Below, piece after piece: positions 47,801-50,800 of a stretch of 64,000 nt of DNA. Made by a program: the position numbers and the translations under genes. Source of the DNA: Amycolatopsis australiensis (GTDB taxonomy: Bacteria > Actinomycetota > Actinomycetes > Mycobacteriales > Pseudonocardiaceae); contig NZ_FPJG01000006.1 of NCBI RefSeq assembly GCF_900119165.1, positions 3,844,001 to 3,908,000 of the forward strand, read 5' to 3'. Numbering within the stretch: position 1 is the first letter of the stretch; every line of letters begins with the position of its first letter. Below the pieces are notes generated by a model. That model was not told the origin of the DNA. It saw only the letters and a list, made by a program, of their open reading frames with translations, and made no database searches.

Positions 47801-50800
47801 CGCCGGCGAAGAGGTCTTCGCCGAGGTGGCCCTGCCCGCGGGGATCGCCGCCGAGGGCTGGGGACTGCACCCGGCGCTGCTCGACGCGGCCCTGCACGCG
47901 CTGGCGTTCACCGGCCTGCCCGCCGGGCACCTGCCGTTCTCCTGGTCGGGCGTGAGCCTGCACGCGACCGGCGCGACCGAGCTGCGGGTGCGCCTGCGGC
48001 CGTCGGGCGACGCCGTCGCGCTGACGCTGGCCGACCCGGCCGGCCAGGTGGTCGCCACCGCCGGCTCGCTCGTCCTGCGCCCGGCCGCCCGCACCGCCCC
48101 GGCCACCACGCACCACCGCACCGAGTGGGTCCTGAGTGGGAAACAGTGTTCTGGCCCTGTTTCCCACTCACGACCGGTCGCGGGCATCGGGGACGGGTTC
48201 AGCCACGGGGAGCTCGCCGAGCTGGCCGGCGGCGAAGTGCCCGAGGTCGTCTTCGCCTGCTGCCGTCCGTCGGACACCGACGATCCCACCTGGGCGATCT
48301 GGGCCGCGGCCCAGCGGGCGCTCGCGCTGGCCGAGGCCTGGCTCGCGGACACCCGGTTCACCGGGTCACGGCTGATCTTCGTGACCCGCGGCGCCGTCGC
48401 CGTCACGCCCGGCGAGGTACCGGACGTCGTCGAGGCCGCCGTCTGGGGTGCCGTCGAGCCGCTGCTCGCGGCGCATCCCGGGCGGTTCGCCCTGGTCGAC
48501 GGCGAGCCCGTCGTGCCGGGCGAAGACCGGCTCGCGCTGCGGGACGGCATCGGGTACGAGCCGCGGAGTGCCGCCTGCGCCCCGGCGGCCTGGCGGCCCG
48601 CGGGCACCGTGCTGCTCACCGGCGCGTCCGGCGAACTCGGCGCCGCCGTCGCCCGGCACCTCGTCGAGGACCGGGGTGTCCGGCGGCTCGTCGTGCTCGG
48701 CGCGGCCACCCTGCCGGACCTCGCCGCGGACGTCACGGTCGTCGGCTGCGACGCCGCCGACCGGCACGAGCTGGCCAAGGCACTGCGGGACGTCCCGGAA
48801 CTGACCACCGCGGTCCACATCGGACTGTCCGACGGCAGGCCCGCGGACCTGCGCGACCGCGCGGACGTCGGGCTCAACCTGGCCGAGCTGGACGTCGAGC
48901 TGGTGGTCTTGACCGCCGCGGGCGGCGAGGGCCTGGTCGCGGCGCAGACCGCGGTGCTCGAAGCCGTCGTCCACGGCCGCGGCGGCGCGCTGGCCTGCCG
49001 GGCCGGTGAGCCACCGGCCCTGCACCTGCTCGGCACGAGCGGGGTGCTGCGCGTCGCCGAGCCCGTCCCGGCGGCGAAGGCCCCGGCTCGCCGCCGCGTG
49101 GCGGCCAAGGTCGCCGACGCGGGCAACGCCCTGCACCGCAGGCTCGCCGGGCTGGCCGAAGCCGACCGGCACCGGGCCCTGCTCGACCTCGTCCGCACCG
49201 AGGCGGCGCTCGTGCTCGGGCACGCCGGGCCGGAGGCGGTCGGCGCGGACCGCGCGTTCAAGGAGCTGGGAGTCGACTCGCTGACCGCCGTCCAGCTGCG
49301 CAACGCGCTCAACACCGCGACCGGCCTGCGCCTGCCCGCGACGTCGGTCTTCGACCACCCGACCCCGGCCGCACTGGCGAAGTCGCTGCAGGCCGAGCTG
49401 TTCGGGGCCGAGGACGACGTCGCCACCGAGGTCGTGACCCGGGTCGACGAGCCGATCGCGATCGTCGGCATGGCCTGCCGCTACCCCGGCGGCATCGCCG
49501 ATCCCGAGGCACTCTGGCGGCTGGTCGCCGAGGGCGGCGACGCGATTTCGCCGTTCCCCGCCGACCGCGGCTGGGATCTCGAAGCCCTCTACGACACCGA
49601 CCCCGACGCGCCGGGCACCTGCTACGCCCGCGAGGGCGGGTTCCTGCACGACGCGAGCGCGTTCGACCCCGGCTTCTTCGGGATCAGCCCGCGCGAGGCC
49701 GTCGCGATGGACCCGCAGCACCGGCTGCTGCTGGAGGTGTCCTGGGAGTCGATGGAGCGCGCCGGGATCGACCCGGCCACGCTGCGCGGCAGCCGGACCG
49801 GCGTCTTCGCCGGCATCACCTACCAGGACTACGGCGGCCTCCTCGGCGCCGCGACCGACGACTTCGAAGGCTTCCTCGGCACCGGCAACTCCCCGAGCGT
49901 GCTGTCCGGCCGCGTCGCCTACACCTTCGGCCTGGAAGGGCCCGCGGTCTCGATCGACACCGCCTGCTCGTCCTCGCTGGTGGCGATCCACTGGGCGTGC
50001 CAGTCACTGCGGGACAGCGACTGCACGCTGGCGCTGGCCGGCGGCGTGACCGTCATGTCCACCCCGGTTTCGCTGGTCGAGTTCAGCCGCCAGCGGGCGC
50101 TGGCCGCGGACGGGCGCAGCAAGCCGTTCTCCGCCGACGCCGACGGCGCGAGCTGGGCCGAGGGCGCCGGGATGCTGCTGCTGGAGCGCCTGTCCGACGC
50201 CGAGCGCAACGGCCACCGCGTGCTCGCGGTGATCAAGGGCTCGGCGATCAACTCCGACGGCGCGTCGAACGGGCTCACCGCCCCGAACGGCCCCTCGCAG
50301 CAGCGGGTGATCCGCCGGGCGCTGGCCAACGCGCGGCTCGAACCGTCCGATGTGGACGTCGTCGAGGCCCACGGCACGGGCACCAGGCTCGGCGACCCGA
50401 TCGAGGCGCAGGCCATCATCGCCACCTACGGCCAGGACCGGCCCGCCGGCCGGCCGGTGCACCTGGGCTCGTTCAAGTCCAACGTCGGGCACGCGCAGGC
50501 GGCGTCCGGGGTCGGCGGCGTGATCAAGATGGTCCAGGCCATCCGGCACGGCGTGCTGCCGAAGACGTTGCACGCGGAGGTCCCGTCCCCGCACGTCGAC
50601 TGGGACGCGGGCGAGGTCAGCCTGCTCACCGAGACCCGGCCGTGGCCCGCCGAGCGCCCGCGCCGCGCGGGAGTCTCGTCGTTCGGCATGAGCGGCACGA
50701 ACGCGCACCTGATCCTGGAGCAGGCCCCCGAGGCGGCCTCGGTCGCTGCTCCCATGCCCTCACCAGCACCCTCGACGGAGGCGCTGCGCGCCGCAGCGTC

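Follow-up and report, generated by a model that had tools for sequence, protein, structure and literature searches.

The locus analysed here raises a question of both origin and function: why should a near-perfect palindrome lie in frame within a PKS gene of Amycolatopsis australiensis, ahead of a KR that has lost its catalytic motif? Within the window, by which we mean the whole stretch of 64,000 nucleotides under analysis, the original prediction had placed two 18-nt arms around a 10-nt loop at 48129-48174. This palindrome is real, and is the same object as our site 2 (48128-48175; Table 1) minus the outermost pair; its arms are delimited as 48128-48146 and 48157-48175, each 19 nt long, 95% complementary (18/19 pairs) and 10 nt apart, and the proposed G+C content of about 57% agrees with a count by eye. 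A second in-frame copy that had been reported at 29881, in the same orientation, was likewise found (site 1). Each copy lies on the + strand and donates 16 residues to its host protein; the in-frame PKS location stands, with the amendment that the hosts are two separate ORFs, 22201-35760 and one ending at 60185. The element is absent from five aligned paralogous KRs of the window. Over 20 arm positions, 16 are paired at site 1 and 17 at site 2, compared with a median of 19 in 123 other copies. A pattern shared by the two copies (up to three mismatches) matched twice in the window and not once in 100 dinucleotide-preserving shuffles, a comparison that lacks independence, the pattern having been derived from the two copies themselves; the independent test is a genome-wide pattern search, which returned 48 strand matches versus 0 for a reversed control pattern.

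Table 1. Positions in the window of the two palindromic copies, their host ORFs and the adjoining KR regions
Feature	Position	Strand	Remarks
Palindromic element, site 2 (flagged copy)	48128..48175	+	between DH and KR region of a PKS module
Palindromic element, site 1, decayed arms	29881..29926	+	linker between two KR subdomains, other PKS gene
PKS ORF with site 1	22201..35760	+	from ORF list
PKS ORF with site 2	35761..60185	+	putative start; mechanical ORF opens at 32625, overlapping the preceding gene
KR region around site 1	29293..30630	+	catalytic motif present; insert modelled as low-confidence loop
KR region behind site 2	48105..49170 (approximate limits)	+	catalytic motif lost

Searches of this genome and its relatives for the consensus bear out a dispersed element: the flagged palindrome is a member of a repeat family found in Amycolatopsis and in other genera of its bacterial family. 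A covariance model derived from 27 copies in the A. australiensis genome gave 131 strand matches (E up to 0.01) at no fewer than 66 places in that genome, a lower bound, as scoring covered 150 of the 2548 first-look candidates. The family was matched in 65 of 80 Amycolatopsis genomes (E no higher than 0.001, up to 73 candidates being scored in each) and, at the level of the bacterial family, in 75 of 297 genomes, representing 16 of 46 genera (E no higher than 1e-5, up to 19 candidates being scored in each). No lone arm occurs among 92 matches at two mismatches or fewer, which gives no sign of a longer element with one arm. Phage or plasmid carriage is unsupported: viral contigs held no match to one exact degenerate pattern and no relatives of the site 2 region, and plasmid and phage collections held no match to the 51-nt consensus at E 1e-5, which for so short a query is weak evidence. 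Neither is there a match to a known RNA family that we would credit; when five loci were searched at E up to 10, the sole match over an element was to mir-1180 (23.3 bits versus a gathering score of 49, E 8.7), which we read as chance. Open-licence papers, searched mostly at title level, provided no prior description of such an Amycolatopsis element.

The usual home of this family is the 3' end of genes, chiefly between convergent genes. With gene context assigned by a simple and crude codon-usage gene caller, the 66 copies in the A. australiensis genome occupy 49 convergent gaps, 14 tandem gaps and no divergent gap, the other three being in ORFs (the two PKS copies plus one at the extreme end of another ORF). 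In the same 5-kb stretches, the remaining gaps are convergent in 17 cases, tandem in 151 and divergent in 46 (Fisher p 4e-27 for the convergent excess and 3e-6 for the divergent depletion). Similar distributions were obtained elsewhere: 60 high-scoring copies from four more Amycolatopsis genomes, a sample that left out a site 2 copy of A. mongoliensis already known to be PKS-internal, comprise 43 convergent, 15 tandem, one divergent and one in an ORF; 40 copies picked from eight genomes (two Amycolatopsis and six from three other genera) comprise 24, 14, one and one, respectively. Together, these 100 further copies from 12 genomes amount to 67 convergent, 29 tandem, two divergent and two in ORFs, and the two in divergent gaps count against a strict 3'-end location. 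Stop codons are close at hand: among 211 that lie within 200 bp of 126 copies, 196 are within 30 bp. Coding copies, the object of the original prediction, do exist (5 of 166 examined, one of these within the last codons of its ORF), but the main niche is intergenic (63 of the 66 A. australiensis copies). The ORF-end copy of that genome (C6:9013062) supplies the last residues of its protein, just before the stop codon.

The folded element is stable (median folding energy -35.7 kcal/mol over the 66 copies) and its arms covary. At pair 9, for example, 95 registered copies (out of 123) have A-T in 61 cases, G-C in 20 and T-A in five; over all pairs in this sample, 1585 of 1710 are standard, whereas 1000 re-pairings averaged 1551.5 such pairs and never exceeded 1570. 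It is on account of position, covariation and the exchange of hairpins described below that we read the element as a 3'-end stem-loop. A stable stem-loop after stop codons recalls an intrinsic terminator, but the U-tract is absent: there is no excess of T beside the element (2.05 versus 2.09 per 15 nt), so it is not a terminator of the classical intrinsic type. U-less (I-shaped) termination or 3'-end structure has been described in high-GC actinobacteria (PMC12288462, PMC8780764), and our element has in common with it a stem-loop near the stop codon and no U tail; in those parts of the two papers that were available, however, U-less terminators are not described as one dispersed sequence family. 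One of these sources also cites a title stating that the mycobacterial polymerase requires a U-tract (PMC12288462). Because Rho-dependent termination is described as dominant in mycobacteria (PMC12288462), we regard termination by the element as likely rather than proven.

At orthologous junctions, other hairpins replace the element. Junction 1, the convergent junction of the A. australiensis copy at 919425, was compared across the 30 best of 80 genomes: a hairpin with at least 16 of 20 arm positions paired is present in 28 of them, versus 2 of 300 control stretches, and the two that fall short pair at 15 (G077) and 14 (G078). This element itself accounts for two of the 30 genomes (A. australiensis and NBC_01488); four others (G065, G051, G044 and G006) have variants with the same ends and centre and other inner arms, one with a small flaw; 24 have other palindromes. 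Junction 2 is less regular, which counts against the 3'-end reading. There, a hairpin of the same strength occurs in 13 of 30 genomes (control, 3/150); the left gene differs in 20 genomes, and in the 10 that conserve both genes, eight have a hairpin (three this element, two a variant, three an unrelated palindrome) and two have none. Palindromes of other types at these junctions in other Amycolatopsis genomes include TTTCACGTGAAAG, GGCCGGCACCG, TGAATGTCGCATTGAGGG and ATGTCATGA. In one genome (G041), the stretch GGTCGTGAG abuts the end of the next gene at junction 2, as though the inner part and second arm had been lost; this is a possible deletion scar.

Fixed ends and centre around variable inner arms could suggest that a protein recognizes the ends, and bearing in mind also the missing T-tract, the palindrome might be viewed not as an RNA terminator but as a DNA site that tolerates 3' ends, serving a nucleoid protein, recombination or replication. 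Near absence from divergent gaps could fit either view; the substitution of unrelated hairpins at junction 1 is better accommodated by a structure-based RNA role, and we consider a DNA site quite unlikely. Within a genome the inner arms tend to resemble one another, and between genera they tend to differ, in a comparison of copies that were picked by model score, which favours likeness. In genus g25, two genomes share one inner-arm sequence at 10 of 10 loci; G065 has one sequence at 3 of 3 loci and another at junction 2, G051 has one at 3 of 5 loci, and G135 is mixed.

The explanation that we favour, and hold to be probable, is that of a REP-like, RAYT-free family of 3'-end hairpins, of which the PKS copies are in-frame strays. 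The selected place would be the 3' ends of genes, above all convergent gaps, at which the transcribed stem-loop would most likely act as a bidirectional terminator or 3'-end protector that has no U-tract. Copies would spread within a lineage by a process that operates without a RAYT transposase. Occasionally one would land in an ORF, surviving if its stop-free frame is used and a tolerant linker has been hit; it would then persist as a flexible stretch of some 16 residues, with nothing to hold back decay of its palindrome. Both PKS copies in the window would be such strays, with a near-neutral donated peptide. Arm decay in coding DNA cannot be general, because several PKS copies in relatives still pair at 19-20 of 20 positions.

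The comparison with REPs is instructive in its limits as well as its likenesses. The GTAG and CGTC families of REPs are short multicopy palindromes, found mostly next to the 3' ends of genes in convergent or co-oriented arrangement, with stems mostly of 6-13 bp; some copies lie inside ORFs and are translated (PMC3733652). Like them, the Amycolatopsis family consists of many short palindromes that are predominantly intergenic, largely in convergent gaps (63 and 49, respectively, of the 66 copies in A. australiensis) and translated within ORFs in few cases. Unlike them, its consensus (27 copies, by eye) has neither a GTAG nor a CGTC tag, and its arms extend to 18-20 pairs; the REP hosts listed in the portion of PMC3733652 available to us do not include actinobacteria. 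A RAYT-driven REP is unsupported, since the RAYT Y1 transposase profile (PF01797) was matched in none of 80 Amycolatopsis genomes; the control was matched in 5 of 14 known genomes. Uptake-sequence pairs, which are described as terminators in Haemophilus, are likewise repeats that fold into hairpins where genes end, and the same source reports a 3'-end palindrome motif of A. ebreus in 44 convergent, 4 divergent and 59 co-oriented settings (PMC5217627). Unlike uptake-sequence pairs, as far as that account describes them, each Amycolatopsis copy is a full palindrome.

More tentatively, we can imagine a wider reading, possible rather than probable: a modular 3'-end palindrome of Amycolatopsis and related genera, with fixed ends TCGTGAGTG, a fixed centre of approximately GTTxxAAC and lineage-specific, self-complementary inner arms. 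Copied around each genome without a RAYT, homogenized within lineages, exchanged for unrelated hairpins at one and the same gene junction and occasionally leaking into ORFs as a 16-residue linker, such palindromes would constitute self-spreading, interchangeable terminators.

How, then, did the element come to be in PKS genes? Empty orthologous sites had been sought as a sign of insertion, and site 1 provides them: 10 of 14 orthologues are empty, with a short linker, and four are filled (the window, RTGN1, NBC_01488 and A. mongoliensis, the last with 17 of 20 arm positions paired). None of three less related proteins in the alignment, one of them from the A. australiensis genome, has the insert. 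In the gene tree the insert is a patchy trait, with filled RTGN1 sister to empty NBRC 101858 (support 99/98). A single clean gain is not upheld by this tree: the fewest changes are four, of which well-supported branches force three. The signal for a local recombination tract is weak and mixed. We favour one origin followed by allelic recombination, because all four filled alleles encode a loop variant, R, that is reckoned at 7 of 95 copies (pair 17). Site 3, an in-frame copy that lies beyond the window in the same PKS cluster, within a KS-AT linker, behaves similarly, with two of four sites empty: A. mongoliensis and NBC_01488 are filled, and NBRC 101858 and A. australiensis itself (near C6:3909665) are empty. 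These empty alleles show that the element has been inserted at sites 1 and 3. By eye, no target-site duplication is seen at either, and a few codons seem to have been replaced. Outside PKS genes, genome G081 (genus g3) has a copy in frame (L331, around position 2526) in an ORF of 735 residues with a PMT_2 mannosyltransferase-like domain; the copy falls inside the PMT_2 match, which takes up 174 residues for 160 profile positions, an excess in keeping with an insertion of this length, and no solved structure was found for this protein by sequence. The proposal of a dispersed palindromic element that is inserted in frame and donates peptide is borne out by the empty sites 1 and 3 together with this PMT_2-type copy.

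The frame shared by the PKS copies has a simple explanation, because the consensus has stops in five of its six frames; the open frame reads VVSEKQCSNPVSHSRP. The common orientation and frame that the original prediction pointed out in the window is thus a fact for which no special cause is needed. This filter is strong for consensus-like copies only, because single copies often have several open frames (among 126, one in 54, two in 46, three in 16 and four in 10). The consequence of the insert for the protein is illustrated by a model of the site 1 KR (21 sequences; mean pLDDT 86.5), which agrees in fold with PKS ketoreductases of solved structure (best query TM 0.88-0.89). In it, pLDDT drops below 50 only in the segments 198-203 and 205-209, both of which belong to the insert (residues 197-212). 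From this model, the PKS inserts would be floppy linkers of about 16 residues that do not necessarily break the enzyme.

In-frame peptide donation invites comparison with rickettsial palindromic elements (RPEs), which are about 150 bp long; of the first 44 described from R. conorii, nearly half were in ORFs (PMC10969869). The resemblance is insertion in frame into unrelated genes (three PKS sites and one PMT_2-type gene), with the peptide read from one open frame; the difference, going by the description in that source, is that the Amycolatopsis element is about 50 bp and mostly intergenic (PMC10969869). Were it a selfish RPE-like element that lives by in-frame gene insertion, its intergenic copies being secondary, then one would understand three in-frame sites in a single PKS cluster and another in a PMT_2-type gene of a different genus, the empty orthologues at sites 1 and 3, and a consensus that retains a translatable frame. 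The preference for convergent gaps and stop codons argues otherwise, as does the rarity of ORF copies noted above, even allowing for the known site 2 copy of A. mongoliensis that was outside the sample; we think this reading unlikely. What endures from the original view of an RPE-type element is the donation of peptide in frame, and not coding insertion as the main niche. In-frame palindromes being known from Rickettsia and from intragenic REPs, the PKS copies add a further example of a familiar event; what is less ordinary is the modular 3'-end palindrome with its swapping.

For site 2, the flagged copy, eight orthologues were found within the genus, none of them empty: seven have the whole peptide, and NBRC 101858 has it in part, following a 12-nt in-frame loss that leaves 14 of 20 arm positions paired. 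Such uniform presence is what ancestral protein sequence, or a chance palindrome, might have produced; the empty sites 1 and 3 and the dispersed copies rule this out for those two sites, and with the paralogous KRs of the window that lack the element and its 66 dispersed copies also in mind, we regard it as practically untenable overall. At site 2, membership of the family suggests insertion rather than ancestral presence.

We also considered that the PKS hairpin is kept for a job in its own mRNA, such as pausing, attenuation or domain-wise folding. The site 2 arms read GTGGG/CCCAC in the window versus GTGAG/CTCAC in two relatives, both still pairing, and several PKS copies of relatives are paired at 19-20 of 20 positions; self-templated correction of palindromes could, however, restore pairing without selection. 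Moreover, pairing is down to 16 of 20 at site 1 of the window, 17 at that of A. mongoliensis and 14 at site 2 of NBRC 101858, and most site 1 orthologues do without the element altogether, so that a dedicated role in this mRNA seems very unlikely.

The NYAAAN motif marks the catalytic region of a KR. As had been claimed, the KR behind the flagged copy has lost it; the motif is missing also from P0010, P0013, P0050 and, by eye, NBC_01488 (P0240 was left out of this reading). The further idea that insertion brought about KR decay is unsupported: at site 1 the same element lies in a KR whose NYAAAN motif is intact. At site 2, insert and decay coincide in every KR read and no orthologue is empty, so that either could have come first. 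In a Lentzea homologue the insert is absent and the motif intact, but with 37% identity over the compared region this protein may not be an orthologue.

If the 3'-end hairpins of these actinomycetes come from spreading repeats instead of arising in place, this would be relevant to transcript termination in high-GC genomes and to efforts to engineer natural-product clusters. Filled and empty sites within one PKS cluster make the donated peptide's effect on a module directly testable, and show one way in which megasynthase linkers gain sequence. Separately, Rfam ASpks matches the window in antisense four times with scores that exceed its gathering score, at 27661-27729, 31981-32049, 45645-45713 and 50403-50477 (minus strand); lying in PKS coding DNA, these probably reflect conserved protein-coding sequence rather than sRNA genes.
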